45,685 bases of DNA, taken from positions 1,250 to 46,934 of the forward strand of contig PMTY01000050.1 in NCBI GenBank assembly GCA_003167155.1. Reading direction: 5' to 3'. Position 1 is the stretch's first letter. Every line of letters starts with the position of its first letter. Below are positions 197-45,685 of the stretch, piece by piece. The translations under genes were made by a program, and so were the position numbers. This stretch comes from Candidatus Cybelea tumulisoli (GTDB lineage: Bacteria > Vulcanimicrobiota > Vulcanimicrobiia > Vulcanimicrobiales > Vulcanimicrobiaceae). The notes beneath the pieces were generated by a model that saw only the letters and a program-made list of their open reading frames with translations, had not been told where the DNA came from and ran no database searches.

Positions 197-1555
197 CTAC
201 GGTCCGACGAGGCGCAATATCTCCGTGAAACGTGGCCGATGGGCAATTTGGGCGAACCAGGGAAGGCTCTTCAGAAACAGCAACGTCGGTTCGCGTTCCT
301 TAAACGCGCGCTCGAGATGAGCCAGCGCCTCGTCGAGACGACCGATTGCGACGGCCACGACAGCGAGATTCCACGACACGACGTAGTCGGTGGCCGCCGC
401 GCCTTGCAAACTCGTGTAGACCTGTTCGGCGCGAGCCCGCTCTCCGCAGTCCGCATAGGCTCTACCTAGAAGCGGTAAACGAAAGCATAAATCCTCCGAG
501 CGCTCCGGCGGCAGCATAAGGAGGTCCGCGAGGGCCTTTTCCGGTTGTCCGTCGAGAAGAAATGCCTGGGCGCGATAACGCCTTGCGATGCGGTAGCCCT
601 CATCGCAATCCAGAAGCCTCGACATGCACGCAATTCCTGGACGGTACTTACCCATGTGGATCAATACAAGCCCGACTAACAGCTGACGCGATAGCGAAGA
701 GGGCTCCATCATCAAAGCACGCTGTGCCTCGGAAAACGCCTCATCGTATTCGCCTGCGCAGATTCGATAGTATACGGCATTATTCCATACGATCGATGAC
801 CCTGGATTAAGGCGCAGAGCTGTGTCCAGTTCCGACTTAGCGGCTCTCCAGTTCCAGTCAGCGAACATCAACAGTCCGGAAAGCACCGCGTGCGCCATCG
901 CAGACAACGGAGCGATGGCCAGCGCTTGCCTGATCGCGTCTTTGGCGTTGCTAAATGCGTTTGCCGCGGGAACGTACCAATATTCGGCGAGAAGCGCGTA
1001 CGCTCTCGCGATGCCGATCAGAGCCGGTACGTAGGATGGATTGCTGCGAAGCGCCGACTCAAAGGCGTCAATGGCCCGCTTGAGGTCCGGGGCGGTTCTT
1101 CGCTCAAGCAGATAACTTCCCTGACAGTAGTCCCGAAACGGTTCCAGTTCGCTGTTTGGCATAGCGTCTCGCGCCGCTTCATGGCGTTCAAGGGCCTGCG
1201 GTTCCACCGTCACGGGCACCGTTAGTTGATACCCCTTCCCGCTCACGGTCATGATGAGGGCCCGGTCGCGGGCGTGTTCGCCTAGTATCTGGCGCAGCAA
1301 GTAAACATGTTGCGCGATATTCCCGTCGGCGACGGCCGCGCTGGGCCAGACCCGCAAAGCGATCGTTTCCCTCAGCACAAGGCTGCCGTTTGCCTCGACG
1401 AGCATCAAGAGGACCTGAAAGACCCGTTCAGGCACCGGTATGACCTGCGACTGCCGAAAGAGAAGCCGGCGCACCGGGTCAAGGCGCAACTCACCAAAAA
1501 GATATGCCCCTACTTTACTTGCCGGCGCCTCCGGATCGGAGATTCTCAAGAACAC
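197..1555 (-). CDS. winged-helix (OmpR/CadC-type) DNA-binding protein with TPR-like domain, paralogue A
   Basis: A 452-residue putative transcription regulator. Residues about 15-115 look like the OmpR/PhoB-type C-terminal winged helix (Trans_reg_C): an AYLFGELRLDP-like first strand, the PERVFQVLLMLVEANG helix, and SGKGYQL in the wing. The remaining 330 residues are alpha-helical with TPR-like repeats (ALIGIARAYALLAEY, AMAHAVLSGLLMFADW). No membrane segment is visible, unlike CadC, so it is probably cytoplasmic and senses through protein contact or a ligand. It is a clear paralogue of the genes at 4505 and 29675. It is divergent from the lipoprotein gene at 1782, its likeliest target by position. 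Effector and operator are unknown. Confidence 0.8.
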   Translation of the reverse strand: MFLRISDPEAPASKVGAYLFGELRLDPVRRLLFRQSQVIPVPERVFQVLLMLVEANGSLVLRETIALRVWPSAAVADGNIAQHVYLLRQILGEHARDRALIMTVSGKGYQLTVPVTVEPQALERHEAARDAMPNSELEPFRDYCQGSYLLERRTAPDLKRAIDAFESALRSNPSYVPALIGIARAYALLAEYWYVPAANAFSNAKDAIRQALAIAPLSAMAHAVLSGLLMFADWNWRAAKSELDTALRLNPGSSIVWNNAVYYRICAGEYDEAFSEAQRALMMEPSSLSRQLLVGLVLIHMGKYRPGIACMSRLLDCDEGYRIARRYRAQAFLLDGQPEKALADLLMLPPERSEDLCFRLPLLGRAYADCGERARAEQVYTSLQGAAATDYVVSWNLAVVAVAIGRLDEALAHLERAFKEREPTLLFLKSLPWFAQIAHRPRFTEILRLVGP

Positions 1556-1652
1556 AGCGCAACGGTATCATGTAAGTTCATCAAAGTCATAAACAAATCT
1601 AAAACGACGGGCTTTCGGCTGCGTTTCACGTCGATTCGAGCATGTTTGCGGA

Positions 1653-1681
1653 TTGAAAAGGATTTTATATTATTTTATAAT
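1653..1681 (+). promoter_or_regulatory. sigma70-type promoter for the 1782 lipoprotein/kelch unit
   Basis: TTGAAA at 1653-1658 and TATAAT at 1676-1681 are separated by exactly 17 bases, inside an AT-rich island that stands out from the GC-rich surroundings. The predicted transcript starts near 1688 and has a leader of about 95 bases before the GTG at 1782. It lies in the gap between the divergent regulator (start 1555) and the lipoprotein gene. Confidence 0.6.
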
Positions 1682-1781
1682 TCAGCGGAATGCGAATTCG
1701 CAGGTGGTTTGCGCCGGCACGCGGAGAATACTATGACGCAAGTCAGCCATCACATCGCGCTGCAGAAGGAAGAGAATTCAA

Positions 1782-2819
1782 GTGAGATTCGCAACGCCGG
1801 CGGCCGCGATCTTCATCGCTGGCGGATTCCTTGCTAGTTGCACCAGCGGCACGTCACAATCTCAAGCAGTTCCGTCACGACTCACGGGTCTGCCGTCAAG
1901 CATGATGCCACCGCTGGGGGTTCGACCCGATCGTCACCGGTCGTGGGTTTCGCCGGACGCGGCAAATGCGGCGCAGTTGCTCTTCGAGTCCGACCTCGGC
2001 ACCGATGACGTGTACATCTTTGCGTTGCCGGACATGACGCTGAAAGGAACGCTCACCGGGTTCAAGGAGCCTTTAGGCGAGTGCTCGGACAACCACGGCA
2101 ACGTCTGGATAGCGAACAGCTTGAAGAACGAGATGCTCGAGTACTCACGAAGCGGGGCCTTGCTTAACAAAATCGCGCGTGCAAACCTGAATCCGTGGGC
2201 ATGTGCCGTCAATCCGGTCAACGGTGACATAGCGATCACGCAGGAGAATCGCCCCCACTTCCAACCGGGCCAAGTCCTGGTCTATTCAAACCCGTCTTCG
2301 GCCCCGATGATTTTGCACAACCCCGCCCAAGTTTTCTATTTTTATGCCGCCTACGACCCTCGCGGCCATCTTTGGATCGACGGCACGGATGCGCTGGGCC
2401 ATTCCATACTTTCGAGGTGCGATGCGGCGAGTTGCACGACGATCGGCCTGAGCGGCGGCAGCATCATCGCCGCCGGAACGATCGCCTGGGATAAGGATAA
2501 CGGCACGTGGGTCGTGTTCGACCAGTATTGCCGCGACGCGCCAAGCTTTTGCAGTTACCCGGTCTCGGCGCTGGGTGTTGTCGGGACGCCTACAACGTAC
2601 CTGAGCTACACTGGGGGAGCACTCTGCGACCTAATCCAGGTGGCGATGGTGTCAACCGGCAAGCGGCCGATCGTCGTCGGAGGTGACAACGAGTACCCGT
2701 GCGGTTCCTACAAGACCAGCTCGGTGAATCGTTGGACGTACCCCGCAGGCGGCAACCCGCTGAACTCCAACCTAGGCAGCGTTTTTTATCCCTGGGGCGC
2801 TGCGGTCAGTGTTAAGTAA
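1782..2819 (+). CDS. secreted beta-propeller-like lipoprotein
   Basis: A 345-residue protein beginning with a lipoprotein signal peptide: hydrophobic AAAIFIAGGFLASC with the lipobox Cys near residue 20. The start is GTG at 1782, supported by the purine-rich AGAAGGAAGAG at 1764-1774. The mature part contains propeller-like strands (LFESDLGTDDVYIFALP, GECSDNHGNVWIANS, CAVNPVNGDIAIT), the same layout as the lipoproteins at 42076 and 44344 (GECVD.G..F.T, C.VDPTTGNLAVT). It probably folds as a six- or seven-bladed propeller on the outer surface or in the periplasm; no enzyme motif is visible. Only 27 bases separate it from the kelch gene at 2847, so the two are probably co-transcribed. Confidence 0.75.
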   Translation: MRFATPAAAIFIAGGFLASCTSGTSQSQAVPSRLTGLPSSMMPPLGVRPDRHRSWVSPDAANAAQLLFESDLGTDDVYIFALPDMTLKGTLTGFKEPLGECSDNHGNVWIANSLKNEMLEYSRSGALLNKIARANLNPWACAVNPVNGDIAITQENRPHFQPGQVLVYSNPSSAPMILHNPAQVFYFYAAYDPRGHLWIDGTDALGHSILSRCDAASCTTIGLSGGSIIAAGTIAWDKDNGTWVVFDQYCRDAPSFCSYPVSALGVVGTPTTYLSYTGGALCDLIQVAMVSTGKRPIVVGGDNEYPCGSYKTSSVNRWTYPAGGNPLNSNLGSVFYPWGAAVSVK

Positions 2820-36948: not shown

Positions 36949-38298
36949 TCAAAATCCCGACAACGAGTAAGCGGTGCCGCATCCGTTAGAGCAGGATCCC
37001 GAACCACCGTTGTGCGTCGTGCCGTATAGGATGCCGTTCAAGTAAAGGAGAGTCCCCGTCGGTGTCGCGCCGTCGGTGCCGTCCTTGAAGCTGTGGAGCA
37101 TCTTTTCTTTGCCGGACGTGGTGACGCCGAAGGCCGCGCCGCAACCGGTGATACCGGCGGAAGTCGTGCACTTACTGCTCGCGCCGCCGTCTTCCGTGGT
37201 ACCGTAAAGCACGCCGTTCACGTCGGTCAAATTCCCGAACGGGCTCGCGCCGTCTTTTGGGGCGCCCTGGAAGCTGTAAATGGCTTTGAACGCGCCGGAT
37301 GTTTTCAGGCTGAAGACGGTCCCGCATCCGCCGCCATTACATCCCACAGCGCTGCCGCCCGACCCGGCCATGCCGTACAGCGTGCCGCTCACGTCGATCA
37401 AGCCCCCGGACGGGAACGCTCCGTCCGATGCGCCCGTAAAGCTGTACAGCACCTTCTCCGTCCCGGATGTGCTCAGGCTGAAGAGTGTTCCGCATCCGAC
37501 AGCGCTGCTATTGCCGCAGGATGAACCTCCACCACCTAATTGCGTCGTGCCATAAATCTTGCCGTTGCTGTAAAGCAGACTCCCCGTAAGCAATTCGCCG
37601 TCCTGGCCCCCTGTGAAGTTATGAAGCACGGTTTCTTTTCCGGATGGGGTCACGCTAAAGACGGTTCCACAGCCGCTCCCGCTGGTGCCGCAACTGCCGG
37701 TGCCGCCATAGATCGTCGTACCGTAGAACTTGCCATCGGCCTGCACGTAGATCAGTCCGCCGTAGGGGTAGATGCCGTCATATCCGCCGCTGACAACGGC
37801 GCCAAAACTATGCAGCACGGTTTCTTTACCCGCGGTTGTGACCTTGAAGAACGTGCCATAGCCGTATTGGCCGCCAACTTGCGTCGTGCCGTAGAAAACG
37901 CCACTTCTTTCGACTAGGCCGCCCTTCGCGTACTGGCCGTCCGGTTTGCCTTTGAAACTATAGATCAGACTTTCGGCACCCGACGTACTCATTGCAAAGA
38001 CGGTCCCGCAGCCGTCGCCGCTTCCGCACCCCGAGCCGCCGCCTTGCTCGGTATCGCCGTACAACGTGCCGTTTACGGCGATCAGGGCCTCGTTCGTCGG
38101 GTGCTCGGCGTCCGAGCCGCCCGCGAAGCTGTAGAGCACGTTCTCCGTCACGCCGTGCGAAGCGTACGGGCCCGACGCTGACCGCGAAAGCGCAGCCAAC
38201 CCCGTCGTCGGCGAAGATAGAACGCTATTGGCTCCGCACGCGGCCAAAATCGCGCCGCTAAGAAGCGCGGCGATGAGCGTGCTCGCTGAAGTGCGCAT
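36949..38298 (-). CDS. GloVer-repeat beta-propeller lipoprotein
   Basis: A 449-residue lipoprotein. Start ATG at 38298 (signal STLIAALLSGAILAACG; AGGAGG lies 12 bases upstream); the frame is open to 38409. The mature part consists of seven tandem units of about 50-60 residues: VLYSFxGxxDGxxPxxxL, then GxLYGTTxxGG, then GCGTVFxxxxSGxExVL. This is the GloVer repeat type; seven copies would close as a seven-bladed propeller. Most units carry a Cys pair (SCGxxxGCGT), likely disulfides. It would sit on the cell surface or in the periplasm; ligand unknown. Confidence 0.86.
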   Translation of the reverse strand: MRTSASTLIAALLSGAILAACGANSVLSSPTTGLAALSRSASGPYASHGVTENVLYSFAGGSDAEHPTNEALIAVNGTLYGDTEQGGGSGCGSGDGCGTVFAMSTSGAESLIYSFKGKPDGQYAKGGLVERSGVFYGTTQVGGQYGYGTFFKVTTAGKETVLHSFGAVVSGGYDGIYPYGGLIYVQADGKFYGTTIYGGTGSCGTSGSGCGTVFSVTPSGKETVLHNFTGGQDGELLTGSLLYSNGKIYGTTQLGGGGSSCGNSSAVGCGTLFSLSTSGTEKVLYSFTGASDGAFPSGGLIDVSGTLYGMAGSGGSAVGCNGGGCGTVFSLKTSGAFKAIYSFQGAPKDGASPFGNLTDVNGVLYGTTEDGGASSKCTTSAGITGCGAAFGVTTSGKEKMLHSFKDGTDGATPTGTLLYLNGILYGTTHNGGSGSCSNGCGTAYSLSGF

Positions 38299-38554
38299 GG
38301 GTTCTTTCAACCTCCTGTGTCTTGGAGTTGCCTGCCAAGTGAAAAACGCGGTGAGCCGCAAAGCGCCTACCTTCAGGCGATAATGCGCCTTCCTGCTTGC
38401 TTTTGTCAACCGCGATACAAGCGACGAACGTCGATCGCCATGGAATCAATATTGCCGACGACAATACGCACGAAATCGGGCTGGCGTAACGCACCCGCGG
38501 CCGCCTTCACGCTGCCCTTGGATACGCCACGTGGAGCCTAGGACGACGGCATCA

Positions 38555-38900
38555 CTACAAAGGCGGCGGAATGCATTTGCCCGACGCGACACGACAGATG
38601 ACGATCGGAGCGGGCTGCGTGAGGCCCGCAAACGGTGAGCCTTTCAGCGGCTTCAGCGCGCCCGTGCTCTCGATCGCGTACCCCGAAATGTTGTTGGATC
38701 CGACGTTTGGCACGTAGGCGAACTTCGCCGCAGGATCGACCGCGACATACTCGGGTCCGGTACCCGCAGCGAACGGCGAGCCTTTCACGGCCTTCAGCGC
38801 ACCGGTGGTTGCGTTGATCGCATAAGCGGAAACGTTACTCGAAGCATCGTCGACGACGTAGGCGTACTTTCCGTTGGGATCGACGACGAAAGCGGGCCGT
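38555..38900 (-). pseudogene. C-terminal fragment of a lactonase-type beta-propeller
   Basis: The reverse strand encodes VVDPNGKYAYVVDDASSNVS, TTGALKAVKGSPFAAGTGPE and KFAYVPNVGSNNISGYAIES, the repeats of YVTN/lactonase-type seven-bladed propellers (VDPxGKFAYVxNxxSNNVSxY). Only about two blades remain and no signal peptide or start precedes them. The homology ends where the foldback repeat begins (38887-38900), so the 5-prime part was lost at that junction. The apparent start further up (39001) lies in repeat sequence. Confidence 0.7.
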
Positions 38901-39284
38901 GTTGCTATGCGGGCTTTGCAGCATTGCGGGCGTTGCAGCGTGGATCGGCAATGCGGCTGCACTGGCGTGGCCGCATAGCCAGCCCGGCGGCATCGCGGCA
39001 TAGCCGCGGCTTCGATCGCATCGCTACTCAGAACCAGGAGGCATAGCCAGCTGGGGGGCTCGTTTTGCTATGCTGTGGCTCCTATCCCGGTACCGTTACG
39101 GTGGGAAAGGAGCCAGAGCCGCTGAAACGACGCCCCCCTCCCCGGCCGAGCTGCAAGGCGATCGAAGCCGGGGCTATGCTGCCGCGCTAGCTACGCTGCT
39201 AAGCTGGGCGCAGCCGCAATGCCGATCCACGCTGCAATGCCCGCAATGCCGCAAAGCCCGCTTAACAAACACGGCCCGCTTTCG
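38887..39284. repeat. 398-base foldback repeat (near-symmetric inverted arms)
   Basis: Two arms of about 150 bases are imperfect inverted copies. Matching pieces include CGAAAGCGGGCCGT (38887-38900) with its complement at 39271-39284, GCAGCGTGGATCGGC (38935-38949) with its complement at 39221-39235, GCGGGCTTTGC repeated in both arms, and GGCTTCGATCGC near 39007 with its complement near 39150. The centre holds a smaller hairpin: GGCTCC (39077-39082) / GGAGCC (39109-39114) and ACCGT / ACGGT. Single-stranded DNA or RNA would fold into one very long structured hairpin. No transposase is encoded. Confidence 0.72.
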
Positions 39285-39294
39285 CGAAGCCGTG
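39270..39294 (-). terminator. rho-independent-like terminator after the NHL gene, at the repeat edge
   Basis: On the reverse strand, CACGGC and GCCGTG (complements of 39289-39294 and 39270-39275) form a stem whose loop contains TTCGCGAA, followed by TTTGTTAA. It lies about 25 bases after the stop codon of the NHL gene at 39319 and at the outer end of the foldback arm. Confidence 0.5.
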
Positions 39295-39318
39295 CCGAGG
39301 GCAGAGGCGCGGGGGAGC

Positions 39319-40314
39319 TTACGGCAATAGCGGTGGGTAATAAGCCACTCCGTGAGGGTCGAAGAGCCCTTTGGTAATCTCCCTAGATGGCTTCAAGGAA
39401 TGCGGTGGAAACTCAAGGACCGTCATCTCATCTGAATATTGGCCCTCATTCGCGACGTAAAGCCAACCGTTCTTTCCAACCACGACCCCGTCCGGGTAAG
39501 AGAGCTTGTCCGTTATGGTTCGGTACGGCTTACTCTGTCCGGCTCGATACTCCTCGACATTGCTGCCTGGTACATGGTCAGTCGTCACATAGAGCGTATC
39601 GTGCGCGTCAACGGCGATGCCTACTGGCCAAGTTATGCCGTCGGTGATCGTCCTTGACGGTGACTTGCTACCTGGAGCATACACCTGGATGTTGTAAGTT
39701 TTGTATGGCTGGAGATTCGCGACGTAAAGGTTGCCCGCATGATCAATGGCAATGCCCTCGGGGAATGTCAACCCCTTCGTGATCGTCGCATGGGGTTCCG
39801 TCGATCCTTTTAAGTACTCTGCGACGTCATCGAGACCGGCGTTTGTCACCCAGAGATTACCCGACGCGTCGATTGCGCAATATGCTGGGTAGTTGATGCC
39901 TTTGGTGATCAATCGCAACGGTTTGGTTTGACCAAGAGCGTATTCCGAAACCCATCCCGTGCCGCTGTCCGGGTAGTTAGTAACGTAAAGAGTACCATCG
40001 CCATCGATGCAAGCGCCCGAAGAGTTATCGATGTCCTGGCTTATCGTAGCGATCGGCTTGGGGTTATCCGCATTCGCATCGTAAATGGTCAGTGGCGCGC
40101 TAGTCAGGCCGAGGTTAGCCACGTAGATCAGCGGGCCGGACGCTTTGTATGTCAGCATGGCGGACGGCGGCTTCACGATTCCGCTAACTTGGGAGCTTTT
40201 CGGCACGAGGTTCGGCGCGCCAATCGGCGGCTGCGATCCACCGCACCCTGCAAGCAGCGCAGCAATAAAGATGTAACCTGATGCAGATAACTCGAAGCGA
40301 GAAAGAGCTTTCAT
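39319..40314 (-). CDS. NHL-repeat beta-propeller lipoprotein
   Basis: A 331-residue lipoprotein. Start ATG at 40314, which overlaps the stop of the upstream gene (TGA 40311-40313) as ATGA; the frame is open to 40335. The signal peptide ends ALLAGCGGSQPPIGAPN. The mature part has six or so NHL-like repeats: ACIDGDGTLYVTN, CAIDASGNLWVTNAG, IAIDHAGNLYVANL, IAVDAHDTLYVTT, VVVGKNGWLYVANEG, each followed by ITKGxxxP. No enzyme motif is visible. It is translationally coupled to the glycine-rich lipoprotein and followed by a terminator and the foldback repeat. Confidence 0.82.
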   Translation of the reverse strand: MKALSRFELSASGYIFIAALLAGCGGSQPPIGAPNLVPKSSQVSGIVKPPSAMLTYKASGPLIYVANLGLTSAPLTIYDANADNPKPIATISQDIDNSSGACIDGDGTLYVTNYPDSGTGWVSEYALGQTKPLRLITKGINYPAYCAIDASGNLWVTNAGLDDVAEYLKGSTEPHATITKGLTFPEGIAIDHAGNLYVANLQPYKTYNIQVYAPGSKSPSRTITDGITWPVGIAVDAHDTLYVTTDHVPGSNVEEYRAGQSKPYRTITDKLSYPDGVVVGKNGWLYVANEGQYSDEMTVLEFPPHSLKPSREITKGLFDPHGVAYYPPLLP

Positions 40315-41282
40315 TTTTCTAACTGCGACTGCCATGAAATAATGATTTCACCATTTCCGGCGGGCGCCGCGCCTCGGCGGTTTTCCAGTACTTTCGCGCT
40401 CGGCTCGATGTAGTCTGAGCCGCCACCGCCACCGCCACCGCCAGTACCATAAGGATAGTATTCTGAGTCGTAGACGAGAGCGCCGCTACCGCCGCCGCCG
40501 CCGCCGTAGTAGCCACCGCCGGCGCCACCACCGGCGCCACCGTGTTTGCAAGACGAGTAAGATGGTGGGCAAGCCCCTCCCTCGCCGCCTCGACCAAGCT
40601 CCCCATTTTCGCCAGGAGATCCAGAGCCGTACGAACCTTCCCCTGGCTTCCCGCCGTTACCGCCGCCGCTTTGCGTGCCTCCGGCTCCTCCGGTACCGGC
40701 GGCGCCGGAGGAGCTGCCGCCATCCCAACCGCTTTGCCCGGTTCCGCCGATGCTGCCGCCGCCTTTGGCCCCTGCCCCATAGCTGTAACTGCTGTTGTTG
40801 TCGAGTGAACCTTGGCCTCCACCACCACCGGCAACCAATATGCGATCCGAGAGTCTGTGGCCGCCCTGGCGCACGTCCGACGCACCGCCGCCACCGTAGC
40901 TCTGGCGGCAGCACGGACGGCCGCCGCCGACCGCGCCGCCGTTGTAACCGCCAGCCGATTGGGAGCCCGATCCGCCGACGAAGACCGCGAGCCGCTCTCC
41001 GGCAGTCACCGGAATTTCCGCGTGGATGCGCCCACCGTGACCGCCCTCGCCGCCACCGCTAGCGCCGTCTGCCGTGACGGTGATCGTCGTCACATTTTCG
41101 GGCACGACGAAGGTCTGCGGTGCGCCGGTGAACTGAAACCTTTGTGATTGCGTCGTATGAGATCGCGCTTCGAACATAGCGCCCGATGCGCCGACCGGCG
41201 GCTGCGATGCGCCGCACGCCGCCAGCATTACCGGGGCTACGAAGCTGCATAGCGTAGCGCGGCCAAAACCTAAGTTCTTCAT
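40311..41282 (-). CDS. glycine-rich lipoprotein with ALK/LTK-type glycine-rich domain
   Basis: A 323-residue lipoprotein (signal SFVAPVMLAACGASQPP). Residues about 50-100 form a jelly-roll-like start (FQFTGAPQTFVVPENVTTI, TVTADGASGGGEGGHGGRI) as in the glycine-rich domain of ALK/LTK receptors and bacterial relatives. After it comes a long glycine-rich region with GGGG, GGAGGG and SYGSGSPGE repeats, then EIIISWQ at the end. The polyglycine stretches likely form polyglycine-II-type helices. Its first 38 codons are near-identical to those of the lipoprotein at 44344. A ligand or surface-adhesion role is inference. Confidence 0.78.
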   Translation of the reverse strand: MKNLGFGRATLCSFVAPVMLAACGASQPPVGASGAMFEARSHTTQSQRFQFTGAPQTFVVPENVTTITVTADGASGGGEGGHGGRIHAEIPVTAGERLAVFVGGSGSQSAGGYNGGAVGGGRPCCRQSYGGGGASDVRQGGHRLSDRILVAGGGGGQGSLDNNSSYSYGAGAKGGGSIGGTGQSGWDGGSSSGAAGTGGAGGTQSGGGNGGKPGEGSYGSGSPGENGELGRGGEGGACPPSYSSCKHGGAGGGAGGGYYGGGGGGSGALVYDSEYYPYGTGGGGGGGGSDYIEPSAKVLENRRGAAPAGNGEIIISWQSQLEK

Positions 41283-42075
41283 GTTGCCTTGCTCCTCAAT
41301 CCGCCAACGGATCAGCGGCTAGGGACGTTCGGCGCCAGGCCGCAGTTCCATCGCAACAGCTGCCAGGGCCAAAGTCGCCTTGGGCCACGGCTGCGCCGAT
41401 CGCAACCGGAGCCGTGCTTCGCCCTAGAGTAGTGCATGCCGAGTGAACTTCCCGGGTGCGCGACCCGAGCCGCCGAATTGCCTGTTTGGCACCGGGCGAT
41501 GTAAGATGCTCCCCGGGGCTTCGTTTCAAGGTTCTCGGAGAATACACTATTGTTTAAACGCTGCGCATTCACCGCGCGCTTTCTCTCCACAATTTCGCCA
41601 GCTTTGCAACAATTGCGCCCGCAAAATGAGCGGTGACGAATTCTCTCAGCTTGAGACTCCCGAGGATGCGCCACTCGCGCCAAGCGGTGAGGAACTGGCT
41701 GTGCAGCGTAGGCCACTCATTGGCCGCACGCTCGAATTAAAAAAGATTAGCGCTGCAAATGTGCTGTTCCAAATACAAGCGGCTGGCGCAAGGCTCGTAA
41801 CGCTATCCAATGCCGTTTGTGTGGAACAAGCAGCCCGCTGCGAACCTTCGACCCGCGCGAGGCACTCGAACCCATGGCCTCGGCAATCACGCGCACCGGC
41901 AGGCCCTGCAGCCTCGGCAGAATGTCGCGCCGGAAGTCCACGCGATCCAGCGAAGGGCGACAGCACATGTACTAAACGCGTATGGGCCAAAACCTCGGAC
42001 CGTCATTCAATGCCTCCATGAACCTGAACGCTTCGCCGCCGAGTGCGGTTCGGCGCGGCCCACCGAGCTACGTCG
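41283..42075. other. 793-base gap without an intact gene
   Basis: Open frames here on both strands (for example 41443-42021 forward) have no recognisable protein sequence. On the reverse strand at 41747-41968 there is a fragment resembling a helix-turn-helix, annotated separately. GTTGCCTTGCTCCTC at 41283-41297 is the complement of a conserved leader of the glycine-rich gene. Confidence 0.5.
41747..41968 (-). pseudogene. fragment of an HTH protein (VPHKRHW-type)
   Basis: A 73-residue frame with DILPRLQGLPVRVIAEAMGS and VRSGLLVPHKRHWIALRAL. The layout (P..x.VP...A...G.S......R.G..VPH.RHW.AL) is that of a small C-terminal helix-turn-helix that I recall attached to mobile-element or defence-associated proteins. 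Nothing upstream is coding-like, so this is probably a remnant. The identification is tentative. Confidence 0.35.
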
Positions 42076-43089
42076 CTAGCGACGTGCAAGGCTAACGACG
42101 GAACCGACCGGGTCTGTAAGGCCCTTAAGGACCTTCGTCGCAGCGCCCCCAGCGGGATATTTCCAAATCATGGCATTCCCTGTCCCTGCATTTGGCCCGG
42201 CGACTTTGTTCCCTTGAATCCAGAATTGCAGGACGTATGAAGCACCGCCCAGCGGAGTCGAGCCGATTTCCGTTCCGCGGGTTCCACTTATATTGAAGCG
42301 ATAGATTACATTCTCGTCGGTATCTCCGACAGCTATGTTTGTGCCGTACCATTGGACTCCGCCGGGATAGTTGATCGTTTGGTTCAGTGTGATGTCGGTA
42401 AAGCCGCTGCTGCCAACCTGAAGCTCCGCGAAGGCGAAGCCGTCGAACGGATTATAGTCACGTGCACCGTCAACGAATAGGTTACCAACGTTATCGTAGC
42501 CGCAGAAGAAAAAATATCCAATGTACGTATCCGTGTAATATCCGAGAAAACGCCCCGCCTTGTTGTAGATTGCGAGGTTGCCGCCGGTTCCGTTGATGCC
42601 CTCAAGGTTGGTCACCGCCAGATTTCCTGTCGTCGGGTCAACTGAGCAGCCGCTGGCGTCGTATCCTGAGTCCTTAATCTTCGCGATCGGCTTCGTACCG
42701 CCATGGCGGTATTCAAAAATATACGATGCTGTGGACCTTCCCAGGGTCGTTATGAAGACGTTACCTGTCTTATCGACGCACTCACCCTGCGGGTACGCAA
42801 GGCCCGTTAGTGTGCCGACAAGTTGGCCGCGCGGCCACGAGTACACATACACCTCATTCGCCCCCTCGTCGGAAATGTACAGTAAGTTCTTCGTCGCGGC
42901 ATCGGCCGCTATCCACGAGGCGCCGAGGCCGGGGTGCGCGTTGTTCACGGATAGTGGACTACGCGCAGAGGCACCGCCAACGGCTGGCGTCTTCGGTTGG
43001 AGTTGCAAGGCTCCGCTGCAACCTGCGAGCATGGCGAGTTTTGCTGCGATAGCGAGAGCGCGACGCAGATCCCTGGGTGTGATCGTCAT
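42076..43089 (-). CDS. NHL-like beta-propeller lipoprotein
   Basis: A 337-residue lipoprotein with signal LAIAAKLAMLAGCSGALQL. Propeller strands are clear: LLYISDEGANEVYVYSWPRG, QGECVDKTGNVFITT, GCSVDPTTGNLAVTN, GYDNVGNLFVDGAR and YPGGVQWYGTNIAVGDTD. It is similar in sequence and arrangement to the lipoprotein at 44344 and to that at 1782. Its start codon directly follows the TAA of the upstream gene (TAAATG), so the two are co-transcribed and probably translationally coupled. Confidence 0.8.
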   Translation of the reverse strand: MTITPRDLRRALAIAAKLAMLAGCSGALQLQPKTPAVGGASARSPLSVNNAHPGLGASWIAADAATKNLLYISDEGANEVYVYSWPRGQLVGTLTGLAYPQGECVDKTGNVFITTLGRSTASYIFEYRHGGTKPIAKIKDSGYDASGCSVDPTTGNLAVTNLEGINGTGGNLAIYNKAGRFLGYYTDTYIGYFFFCGYDNVGNLFVDGARDYNPFDGFAFAELQVGSSGFTDITLNQTINYPGGVQWYGTNIAVGDTDENVIYRFNISGTRGTEIGSTPLGGASYVLQFWIQGNKVAGPNAGTGNAMIWKYPAGGAATKVLKGLTDPVGSVVSLARR

Positions 43090-44151
43090 TTAATGTTTTG
43101 TCGGCGCGGACTGGATTGCGATGCCGATCGGGCCTTCGCTTGCGTCGATTCCATTCGTGTAACTGTAAACGTACGTTCCTTTTGGGTACGTGTAGACATC
43201 GACCGCCCCGTACTGGTAATCCAGGCAGTAGATTTGCTTCTGGCTCATACCCAGCGCGCACGATCCAGCCAGCCCTTTAAGTGATATGGTCGAGGATGCC
43301 GGAGCGTTGTACGGAGGGGCGTAGATATCAATCGTGTCGGCTGTCTGATCGATTAGCAGCAGGTTATCTTTCTTGTCGAGCAAGACGCCCCCAGGCAAGT
43401 CGGCGCCGATCTGCGTATCTTTCAACACCGTACCGGGCATCTTCTCGTTGTGAAATTCAATCACCTGACCACCGCTCGTCCATTTGTTCGTGTTTGACCA
43501 AAATAAGTTGTGGCGCGAGTCAACGGCAACGGCGAACCCTTCATCGACCGTTGGATCGGAGAGTTCGCCCTGCGCGGCCGGTGGGCGGTGGACGTCGTAG
43601 ATTACGACTGTAGCGGGTACTCCTATACCGTCAGTGGAGTTGGCAAGATACAGCCGCTTTCCGTCAACCGCCGGGTCAAGCTGTCCGTTATTACCGTATG
43701 GATCGTTGAAGCTGGGTCCGCTCGACCCGCACATCGATCCTCCGGTTTCCGCTGTCTTGAAAGTCGCGACCCCGCCACTGTTGAGGAACTCCTCGGCGAC
43801 ATATAGCGTCCCTGTCTGGTCAAGAGTCATCCCTGCTGCCTGTTTGACCGGGCCGACTTGGCAAATGGGTCCCTCGTTCTTTCGGTTGTTCGTGCGGAAT
43901 ACATCGATCGTCGTTGCCAGGAACTGGCTTACGTCCGTGACGCCGTCTGACGTACCCGTATAGCCTTTAAGGTTCATCCACGCTGGGCGCACCGCGGGGC
44001 TGACGCGCTTGTTGAGCAGTGGCAGGGGTCGCTTTAGGGCGCGGGCGACCGCAGTCGGCGGCGCATCAGGCGCGCTAGGTGAGGGAGAAAGACTGCAGTC
44101 TGCTAACATCGCGGCAGCTATGCAAAAAGCCAACGCGAAGCGGCTAGTCAT
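43090..44151 (-). CDS. beta-propeller-like lipoprotein
   Basis: A 353-residue lipoprotein (signal ALAFCIAAAMLADCSLSPS, lipobox Cys near residue 19). The mature part contains propeller-type strands: MTLDQTGTLYVAEEFL, AVDGKRLYLANSTDGIGVP, FAVAVDSRHNLFWSNTNKWT, GVLLDKKDNLLLIDQTADTI. Cysteine pairs (PICQVG, GSMCGS) may be disulfides. It is the first gene of a two-gene unit with 42076-43089. AAAGGAGCAAGGCAG (complement of 44165-44179) lies about 14 bases before the start and also precedes the glycine-rich gene. Confidence 0.78.
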   Translation of the reverse strand: MTSRFALAFCIAAAMLADCSLSPSPSAPDAPPTAVARALKRPLPLLNKRVSPAVRPAWMNLKGYTGTSDGVTDVSQFLATTIDVFRTNNRKNEGPICQVGPVKQAAGMTLDQTGTLYVAEEFLNSGGVATFKTAETGGSMCGSSGPSFNDPYGNNGQLDPAVDGKRLYLANSTDGIGVPATVVIYDVHRPPAAQGELSDPTVDEGFAVAVDSRHNLFWSNTNKWTSGGQVIEFHNEKMPGTVLKDTQIGADLPGGVLLDKKDNLLLIDQTADTIDIYAPPYNAPASSTISLKGLAGSCALGMSQKQIYCLDYQYGAVDVYTYPKGTYVYSYTNGIDASEGPIGIAIQSAPTKH

Positions 44152-44343
44152 CGGAACTCTTCACCTGCCTTGCTCCTTTGCGATCGACTTCAGATCAGCG
44201 GCATTCTCCGGCTGAGCGCGCCGTCCCGCTCGGATCATGTAGAGCGCGCGCCGCGACAAGCCACTTGACCGGCCTACTATTCTGGCTGCCGCGATGGAAC
44301 TGAGGCGCGCCGTAGAACGTCCTTACCCTCAAGGAGCAGGAAG

Positions 44344-45318
44344 ATGAAGAACTTAGGTTTTGGCGCCGTTACGCTAAACAGCTGCGTGGCTGCTGCAACG
44401 CTCACAGGCTGCGGCGGATCGCAGCCGCCGATCAGCGCACCGCGCGCGATGCCGCAAACCGCCGCGATCGCAACGCACGGCGATCGCGGTAAGTCGTGGA
44501 TGCTGCCGGAGGCCAAAACGGATGACCTTCTCTATGTCGGCGGTAACAACGACGAGCTTACGGTGTATTCGTATCCGAGGGGCAAGCTCGTCGGGGTTGT
44601 TAAAAATCCCGACTTCTACCTACTTTCAGGCGAGTGCGTGGACGCATCGGGCGACATATTCGTCACCAGTTTAGGCAACGAGAAGATTTTTGAGTACGAG
44701 CACGGCGGGAAGAAGGCAATCGCGACGCTTCAGGCGGCAACCAACGATCCAGCTGGCTGTGCGGTTGACCCTACGACCGGTAATCTCGCCGTGACGACGC
44801 TCGCCTTTGGTTCCAGCGGTAACGTCGCGGTCTGCCCGAATGCTCAAGGTACGCCGAGCACGTATACCGACCCTAACATTTATTACTACTATTTTTGCGC
44901 CTACGATACCCGAGGCAACCTCTTCGTCGATGGTCAAAGCTACGGCAGCAGCTTTGAGATTGCCGAGCTCCCCAAGGGCAGCAGTACCTTCACAAGCATT
45001 ACGGTCAACCAAAGCCTAAACTGGCCCGGCGGACTTCAATGGGACGGCAAGTATCTCGTTGTCGGAGACCAAGATGCGGCAGACGTCTATGAATTCGCGA
45101 TCTCAGGCTCCTCTGGGACGCTCGAAGGCACTACTCCAATCAACGGCGCAGACGACGTGCATCAGTTCTGGATTCATGGTCATGCAATCGTGGGCGGCGA
45201 CCACAGCGATAGCGAGGTCCAATTCTGGCCTTACCCCCTCGGTGGAAACTCTACGAAAACGATAACCAAAGATGTTGGCGGCCCGGACGGCTTGTCAATC
45301 AGTCCCGCAAAAAAGTGA
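44344..45318 (+). CDS. NHL-like beta-propeller lipoprotein with shared leader
   Basis: A 324-residue lipoprotein; signal NSCVAAATLTGCGGSQPP. It begins MKNLGFG like the glycine-rich lipoprotein at 41282, and the first 30 or so codons are nearly the same in DNA, yet the mature part is a propeller like 42076 (LLYVGGNNDELTVYSYPRGK, GECVDASGDIFVTS, GCAVDPTTGNLAVTT, NWPGGLQWDGKYLVVGDQD). So an export cassette is joined to a different body. AAGGAGCAGG at 44331-44340 supplies the ribosome-binding site. A terminator hairpin and a foldback repeat follow right after the stop. Confidence 0.82.
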   Translation: MKNLGFGAVTLNSCVAAATLTGCGGSQPPISAPRAMPQTAAIATHGDRGKSWMLPEAKTDDLLYVGGNNDELTVYSYPRGKLVGVVKNPDFYLLSGECVDASGDIFVTSLGNEKIFEYEHGGKKAIATLQAATNDPAGCAVDPTTGNLAVTTLAFGSSGNVAVCPNAQGTPSTYTDPNIYYYYFCAYDTRGNLFVDGQSYGSSFEIAELPKGSSTFTSITVNQSLNWPGGLQWDGKYLVVGDQDAADVYEFAISGSSGTLEGTTPINGADDVHQFWIHGHAIVGGDHSDSEVQFWPYPLGGNSTKTITKDVGGPDGLSISPAKK

Positions 45319-45346
45319 AGAGTACCCCCGCGCCTCTGCCCCTCTG

Positions 45347-45380
45347 CACGGCTTCGCGAAAGTGGGCCGTGTTTTGTTTT
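45347..45380 (+). terminator. intrinsic terminator after the 44344 gene, within the repeat
   Basis: CACGGC at 45347-45352 pairs with GCCGTG at 45366-45371 around a loop containing TTCGCGAA, followed by TTTTGTTTTG at 45372-45381. It starts 28 bases after the stop codon. The same hairpin, mirrored, follows the NHL gene at 39270-39294. Confidence 0.6.
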
Positions 45381-45433
45381 GCGGGCTTTGCAGCAATGCC
45401 CGCCATTGCCGCAAGGCCCGCTAAGCAAACACG
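45369..45433. repeat. second copy of the foldback repeat (short arms)
   Basis: CGTG (45369-45372) pairs with CACG (45430-45433). The arms contain GCGGGCTTTGCAGCAATG and, in mirrored form, CATTGCCGCAAGGCCCGC, around a 5-base centre. The left arm is the same sequence as the outer arms of the 398-base foldback at 38887-39284 (GCGGGCTTTGC followed by GCATTG). This looks like a minimal member of the same family. Confidence 0.62.
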
Positions 45434-45526
45434 ACGCGGCGAGGTCCATACCTTTGCCACCGACCGCCGCACGATCGACAGCTACGTCCGTGCCGGTGCC
45501 GTGCATTCTGTCGGGCAGCGCGACGG

Positions 45527-45685
45527 CTCGATCTGGCCGCGGACATCGAGTACCTTGCCACGTTCCCGCAAGCGGCGACGGCCAGCGATCTCGGCTTGAC
45601 CGAACGCGGATGGCGCAAGATAATCAAGATACGGCCCAACTCGAAGGCGACGACGGTGGAGCGCATTCGGGAGGTCGCGGCGCAG
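45527..45685 (+). CDS. partial frame with helix-turn-helix-like sequence at the window edge
   Basis: An open frame to the window end encodes LDLAADIEYLATFPQAATAS, then DLGLTERGWRKIIKIRPNSK and TVERIREVAAQ, which reads like a short DNA-binding helix-turn-helix. Upstream the frame loses coding character; a different frame (45449-45526) carries FATDRRTIDSYVRAGAV. The gene could be frameshifted or joined to the foldback repeat. The call is weak because the end is cut off. Confidence 0.3.

Follow-up and report, generated by a model that had tools for sequence, protein, structure and literature searches.

Casposons, transposons that employ an enzyme related to the CRISPR protein Cas1, have been proposed as the ancestors of CRISPR adaptation. 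A CRISPR array is itself a product of Cas1, in which a copy of the target stands between successive insertions beside the leader, and the miniature or non-autonomous derivatives of casposons are short and gene-free. Published casposons have terminal inverted repeats (TIRs) of 25-602 nt and target-site duplications (TSDs) with a median of 15 nt, and insert where a conserved gene ends (3' side), leaving that gene unharmed (PMC4046053). The TIR of the M. mazei casposon begins with GGGATATAGG, and tips start with GGGATA (PMC10359463). The casposases of A. boonei and M. mazei generate TSDs of 14-15 nt and 14 nt, respectively, and both enzymes read an upstream leader, which in A. boonei lies 9-15 bp before the insertion site. 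Most of the first-described casposons occur as a single copy per genome (PMC9939771), and the Methanosarcina tandems are full casposons or an engineered mini-casposon (PMC9939771, PMC10359463). Casposons, their targeting of gene 3' ends and tandems separated by a TSD are already known (PMC4046053, PMC9939771, PMC10359463). A search of the literature open without subscription found no paper linking casposons with secA or with Eremiobacter, which does not prove that none exists.

Here we describe a long foldback at 38887-39284 of the window, the stretch of 45,685 nt that was analysed, which lies on contig G000:C148 of a 3.7-Mb draft genome from a little-studied soil bacterium. Judging from the sequence, we consider it probable (about 0.9) that this foldback is the TIR-TSD-TIR junction of two neighbouring casposon-type units. 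The unit in the window and its surroundings comprise the following features.

38555..38886, minus strand: gene of propeller type (by eye), 3' fragment only, cut short at the truncated TIR
38887..39088, plus strand: TIR, right end of the left-hand neighbour unit; its tip ..GGCTCCTATCCC ends at 39088, and its gene-side end is absent
39089..39102, no strand: 14-nt centre GGTACCGTTACGGT, read as a TSD common to the two units
39103..39315, minus strand: TIR, left end of the right-hand unit; its tip GGGAAAGGAGCC starts at 39103, and its inner end lies 3 nt past the stop of the gene at 39319
39270..39315, minus strand: conserved inner edge of the TIR, a C-rich stretch and the hairpin CACGGC-TTCGCGAAAGCG-GGCCGTG, terminator-like (putative function)
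39319..40335, minus strand: cargo gene, NHL-propeller lipoprotein, reading outward to the TIR
40311..41282, minus strand: cargo gene, glycine-rich secreted protein (by eye), without a Pfam match
42076..43089, minus strand: cargo gene, lipoprotein-like (by eye only)
43090..44151, minus strand: cargo gene, secreted protein (by eye only)
44344..45318, plus strand: cargo gene, lipoprotein in the paralogue cluster of 39319-40335, without a Pfam match of its own, reading outward to the right TIR
45327..45433, plus strand: right end of the unit, the inner part of a TIR followed directly by an inverted TIR piece, without tips and without a TSD

The foldback is genuine. Folded as DNA, 38887-39300 reaches -175.4 kcal/mol, far below the 100 shuffles (mean -101.9, sd 4.5; z -16.4), none of which folded as well. 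The earlier note had placed GCAGCGTGGATCGGC at 38935 and its complement at 39221, and both coordinates are correct. The arms are inverted copies, as had been proposed, and each is about 200 nt long (38887-39088 and 39103-39315) rather than the 150 nt first estimated. Repeat searches gave a main arm pair of 59 nt with 92% complementarity (38902-38960 and 39210-39268) and an additional pair at 83% (38995-39029 and 39148-39182). The arm tips are separated by 14 nt (39089-39102), so that GGTACCGTTACGGT is flanked by the tips GGGATAGGAGCC (39077-39088, minus strand) and GGGAAAGGAGCC (39103-39114). On the left, several homologous alignments to the gene fragment at 38555-38886 end within a few bases of 38886, and others end earlier.

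The unit from 39103 to about 45433 holds five genes on both strands, and the gene at 44344-45318 stops 8 nt before the inner edge of the further TIR. TIR tips and a 14-nt target copy are present on its left (39077-39114). The right-hand tip is missing, and the TSD mate is unreadable because the right end is truncated. A search with PF01867 found no Cas1 on contig G000:C148. Lacking its own Cas1 and PolB, the unit is not an autonomous casposon; it is a non-autonomous cargo unit beside a truncated left neighbour. A large paralogue family of lipoproteins, seen at 36949-45318 of the window and at many other loci, combines a near-constant N-terminus (..GCGGSQPPIGAPGAMPQ) with variable bodies; this is the commonest cargo that we saw. 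At its right edge (45587-45685), where the contig also stops, the window is 97% similar to G000:C77:7342-7440, so that this edge is probably a repeat that broke the assembly.

A second, short-armed copy at 45369 is also genuine, as 45365-45435 folds with a z of -5.7 and none of 200 shuffles did as well. A 35-nt piece (39267-39301) recurs there in inverted orientation at 45340-45374 with 94% identity, and the region matches positions 2-107 of the TIR profile on the plus strand and then positions 102-47 on the minus strand. It is best read as the other end of the window unit, a TIR-TIR palindrome minus its centre. Long palindromes are prone to lose their centre, and we infer that the centre of this second junction was lost by deletion. 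Truncation and centre loss explain the difference in arm length that had been attributed to a family with variable arms.

Further copies, whose absence would have counted against the proposal of the earlier note, are present in the same genome and in others. All of the data are metagenome assemblies or draft genomes. The foldback query gave 12 matches in its own genome (both strands and the query itself counted) and matched 8 of the 41 genomes searched, its own among them; the strongest matches elsewhere were in G010, G003 and G015, which belong to the same genus. Many genes are followed on their 3' side by the arm's inner edge, CCCCGCGCCTCTGCCCCTCTGCACGGCTTCGCG. At up to one mismatch this motif was found in 6 of the 18 genomes of the genus, and 11 of the 18 gave a match to a longer query from the arm. 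Scanning the collection for the inner motif returned 10 stretches, eight in Candidatus Eremiobacterota MAGs (palsa) and two in deltaproteobacterial MAGs, and the motif was absent from the viral contigs searched. An arm pattern allowing 3 mismatches had 19 hits in the window's genome compared to 9 in a backward control, so many of these are chance hits. We also considered the inner motif as a stand-alone terminator or a DNA-uptake repeat; there were only 18 copies in the genome (up to 2 mismatches) against 4 in the control, and the motif turned out to mark where the TIR ends on its inner side.

An iterated profile located 77 copies of the inner motif over 83 stretches, and 39 of these begin within 30 nt past a stop codon on the same strand, compared to 4.6% of 15,400 random intergenic points. 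The median distance from stop to motif is 10 nt among the 45 copies within 60 nt. Using gene calls from a simple hexamer model, we found 48 copies with a called gene ending just upstream; 29 of these genes fall in the propeller-lipoprotein cluster, and the others are varied. At L121 (G015:C40), a group II intron reverse transcriptase/maturase (609-1937, minus strand; TIGR04416, over cut-off) lies directly behind the TIR inner hairpin, positioned as if the hairpin were its terminator-type target.

Two related arm types, A and B, were distinguished with in-house profiles seeded with two copies; each profile also hits the other type. One junction (G003:C20) has an A-type arm opposite a B-type arm, as assigned by the better profile score. 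The TIR of at least one other unit (G003:C18) differs from both, so further TIR types exist. Each foldback arm is read as one TIR, about 200-300 nt long, of a casposon-type unit.

These observations bear on the possibility that the foldback is a structured RNA or a two-way terminator in a 3' untranslated region, kept for its pairing. The proximity of half of the inner motifs to stop codons, the hairpin recognised by eye and the group II intron directly behind one copy would fit such a role. Counter to this, the window has no match in Rfam (0 in a scan of its whole length), the arms of the mixed-type junction pair only partly, and the GGG tips at the arm ends bracket target DNA. A primary identity as RNA or as a REP-like repeat, both raised earlier, is likewise unsupported by the G003:C20 junction, which forms only a partial single hairpin and yet keeps its tips and a 15-nt gap. 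We consider the explanation as a structured RNA or terminator very improbable. Termination may still be an additional role of the inner C-rich hairpin, which would end the transcription of cargo genes.

The junction reading draws on the tips and on what lies between them. Where an arm extends as far as its tip, it terminates in ..CCTATCCC or a near variant; tips were read with a regular expression naming those already seen. Past the tips comes a short stretch, beyond which there is nearly always either an inverted arm or sequence of one of two sorts. Thirteen junctions have a tip on each strand, and the gap between the tips is 14 nt in four and 15 nt in nine, counted from the positions of tip pairs without a gap limit, although the profiles (seeded from copies bearing the centre) slightly overrun the tip. 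In total, 29 of 47 tips lie in 16 junctions. The remaining 18 adjoin the secA tail (12), a second motif (4), another sequence (1) or a contig end (1). An ungapped scan for 40-nt arms found only two junctions, presumably owing to divergence between neighbouring TIRs.

Some profile hits lack a tip, its place being taken in some cases by an insertion sequence. At four places (L126 3901, L132 3424, L136 4899 and L217 3145) the TIR tip is followed at CTCCTT or CCCCTT by GTATGATGC.., and at L126 this flank runs into an IS110-type transposase frame (under cut-off; the contig stops within the frame). Given L126 and the flank common to the three other copies, we asked whether IS110 might move the units, and took it for a passenger. 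An IS110 transposase also lies near a TIR piece at L129 (2561-3643, minus strand), and an IS21 pair lies beside a TIR junction at L220 (671-2481, minus strand; transposase over cut-off, helper by eye).

If the arms are terminal repeats, a unit lying between two outward-facing tips should be bounded by a TSD of 14-15 nt. We listed every pair of outward-facing tips on one contig within 40 kb. All six pairs have TSD identities of 14/14, 15/15 or 14/15, the sixth (14/15) being two G014:C9 units summed. A scan independent of the TIR models, for a 14-15-nt repeat with a GGG tip and an inverted CCC tip, found five units, three already known plus G003:C18 and the 16,374-bp unit of G003:C20, and none in a reversed control. 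This gives seven single-contig units, with a perfect TSD in six and 14/15 in one.

G003:C20, 14287-21855: TSD 15/15; 7,569 bp, with Cas1 and no whole polymerase seen
G014:C9, 62967-70584: TSD 15/15
G014:C9, 70600-80783: TSD 14/15; 10.2 kb
G010:C74, 562-7349: TSD 14/14; 6,788 bp, with Cas1 and no whole polymerase seen
G003:C39, 3178-7533: TSD 14/14
G003:C18, 17377-32302: TSD 14/14; 14,926 bp, with Cas1 and polymerase
G003:C20, 21871-38244: TSD 15/15; 16,374 bp, with Cas1 and polymerase, abutting secA

Cas1 lies inside four of these units and is absent from three. The two G003:C20 units adjoin, with one TSD copy common to both, and the second borders secA at its far end. As in the window unit, the outermost genes, by the gene calls used here, read outward at both ends in five of the seven; the 16.4-kb unit departs from this at its right end, and the 10.2-kb G014 unit at both of its ends. 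Inverted-repeat searches on two casposon loci failed to single out the TIRs, and the pair at L303 was recognised via its TSD. A clean empty site was not found when the G003:C23 copy was compared with the relatives examined, in which the upstream context differs and the flanks are rearranged.

The bounded units speak against two other explanations. The first is that the 398-nt block is a miniature element, inserted whole behind genes by a transposase acting in trans. Multiple copies behind stop codons are what such an element would produce. However, the conserved tips and the repeated target are central rather than at the outer edges, the outer ends are cut at varying points, and matching TSDs flank the units between two such blocks, which makes this explanation very unlikely. 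The earlier idea of non-autonomous mobile DNA was right in spirit, but the foldback is a junction of two units rather than a single element. The second is an integron-like array, with recombination sites behind each gene served by a tyrosine integrase. Arguing for it, the sites follow the stops of varied genes, and at L153 (palsa_1529) a frame resembling by eye the C-terminus of a tyrosine integrase lies beyond a truncated TIR, downstream of the motif. Counter to this, the window unit has genes on both strands, units of several genes are enclosed by TSDs of 14-15 nt, and four of the seven bounded units contain Cas1. We give an integron-like array with attC sites hardly any credence, and return to casposon-type units and the targets that they adjoin.

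The first kind of target is the 3' end of secA, running backward relative to the tip. secA was found in 15 of the 18 genus genomes, and 12 of its 3' ends, one per genome, were identified with the SecA C-terminal motif as a guide; in one of them the contig stops 2 nt further along, leaving 11 readable. At nine of the 11 a tip-like GGG starts 1 nt past the stop (distances read by eye, without a control), which fits insertion directly behind a conserved gene that is left whole. TIR profile hits coincide with the tip in five of the nine (G005, G008, G009, G011 and G015), and a sixth tip, in G003, bounds a TSD unit. The tips in G001, G007 and G014 are read from their letters alone, that of G014 being of a different type. 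The two secA copies without a directly following tip are G000:C74, the window genome's own, and G006:C126. A further tip type, GGGATAGATACCGTATTYCGCGTC, was seen at or near the 3' side of secA at L318 (G014:C5) and L325 (G006:C126). Short look-alikes of the secA tail also lie by TIR tips in G000 (C102, C12, C159 and C74), G010:C264 and G015 (C40 and C96), apparently apart from a whole secA, with a secA nearby in C74; these are possible portable target sites.

The second kind of target is marked by the motif GARGTRATGCGYCRYCCG, located 9 nt ahead of the stretch in all four cases read. Extended by the three bases that follow it, and with 2 mismatches allowed, the motif occurs at 23 places in 13 of the 18 genomes, compared to one in a backward control; this count is of motif sites, whatever lies beside them. 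By eye, the window centre resembles this second target type, as 10 of the 14 letters of GGTACCGTTACGGT agree with the target adjoining the G010:C172 tip. The motif GARGTRATGCGYCRYCCG itself is absent from the window at up to 2 mismatches. GGTACCGTTACGGT has one exact occurrence and six at up to 3 mismatches, against a total of 3.0 (sd 1.6) in shuffles.

Cas1 is common in the genus, with 19 hits to PF01867 over cut-off in 8 of the 18 genomes; the genome of the window accounts for seven of these hits. Nine of the 19 lie less than 8 kb from a TIR hit (type A or B, E below 1e-5) and two more within 11 kb; the other eight have no TIR hit in the stretch examined, and five of these are on contigs under 9 kb. 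None of the 19 stretches contains CRISPR-like repeats. Taking H-D-E and glutamate-helix patterns to be marks of the Cas1 active site, we found that H-D-E fits 7 of the 19 frames and the glutamate helix 14, and neither fits two. The Cas1 proteins of L303, L299 and L300, the three queried, all have 6opm as their best match among solved chains (E 5e-15, 5e-14 and 2e-18), and 6OPM is named twice, by a count of the term, in a paper on casposase structure (PMC6977970). These matches suggest that the Cas1 of the genus is of the casposase kind.

The 16.4-kb unit by secA, in a relative of the window's organism, encodes Cas1 (PF01867, 6.5e-38) together with a polymerase of 1134 aa that matches a PHROG DNA polymerase family (E 1.1e-8) and has polymerase-B motifs. 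It further holds reading frames that are HTH-like and HNH-like by eye; the HTH gene is probable, and the HNH-like frame had no match in Pfam or PHROGs. The G003:C18 unit (L303) has a like gene set with a weaker polymerase match (PHROG 0.003). A family-B DNA polymerase is thus in the same unit in two of the seven TSD-bounded units, weakly so in G003:C18. Cas1 loci outside the bounded units also have polymerases matching PHROGs (L307 1.8e-7, L308 1.4e-9 and L310 2.4e-5), and in Pfam the polymerases stay below cut-off. Two cargo genes in the complete casposon at L303 (5240-8295, minus strand) have the look of an ATPase/defence pair (by eye only).

Such arrays could form through the activity of a casposase. 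Cas1 would join the tips of a unit (GGGATAGG.. and ..CCTATCCC) to the target, of which 14-15 nt would become duplicated. A further unit entering beside a resident one would bring two long inverted ends head-on across one target copy, resulting in a giant hairpin. In the genus, the 15-nt target corresponds to the end of secA, or to a site like the secA tail, and the second target type, 9 nt behind GARGTRATGCGYCRYCCG, yields 14 nt. The window probably contains part of such an array, with its five-gene unit next to the truncated left unit and, once the second end had lost its centre, the short-armed sister. The likely recombinase is a Cas1 casposase coded in other units of the same and related genomes, by which we infer that cargo-only units are moved in trans.

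The arrays resemble CRISPR arrays in that insertions made one after another beside a leader are kept apart by a copy of the target, whereas the inserts here are kilobase gene units with TIRs. Like miniature casposon derivatives, some units have casposon ends without Cas1; unlike these, they are gene-bearing units of 4-10 kb. The Methanosarcina tandems (PMC9939771, PMC10359463) likewise have only a TSD between units and similar tips. In contrast to them, one 15-nt TSD at secA is common here to a full casposon and to a shorter unit with Cas1, and ends of the same type also bound units that carry genes but lack Cas1. Casposons as described in PMC4046053 agree with the units here in the core gene set of Cas1, PolB and HTH (with HNH by eye), in TIR and TSD sizes, which fall within the published ranges, and in 3'-end insertion. 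They differ in their target, which there is aEF-2 or a tRNA and here secA or the second motif. Compared to that account, the TIRs here are 200-300 nt, the host is Candidatus Eremiobacterota, and three of the seven bounded units carry other genes without Cas1.

Looking across the analysis, several species of one bacterial genus have many casposon-type ends, and secA is apparently a new conserved casposon target. Arrays combine a full casposon with a shorter unit across one TSD, and units with the same ends carry other genes without Cas1. The junctions account for a class of giant palindromes, which may break metagenome assemblies. The genus offers a natural system for studying possible mobilisation in trans, leader-directed array growth and cassette turnover by Cas1. 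Tentatively, and at somewhat less than even odds, we suggest that in this genus a casposase drives a platform of gene cassettes. Units with cargo alone, in which secreted propeller lipoproteins abound, would gather beside full casposons at leader-plus-target sites (secA and the second motif), parted by target copies of 14-15 nt. The architecture would be that of a CRISPR array with kilobase cassettes replacing spacers, and may give a living picture of the proposed step between casposons and CRISPR arrays.
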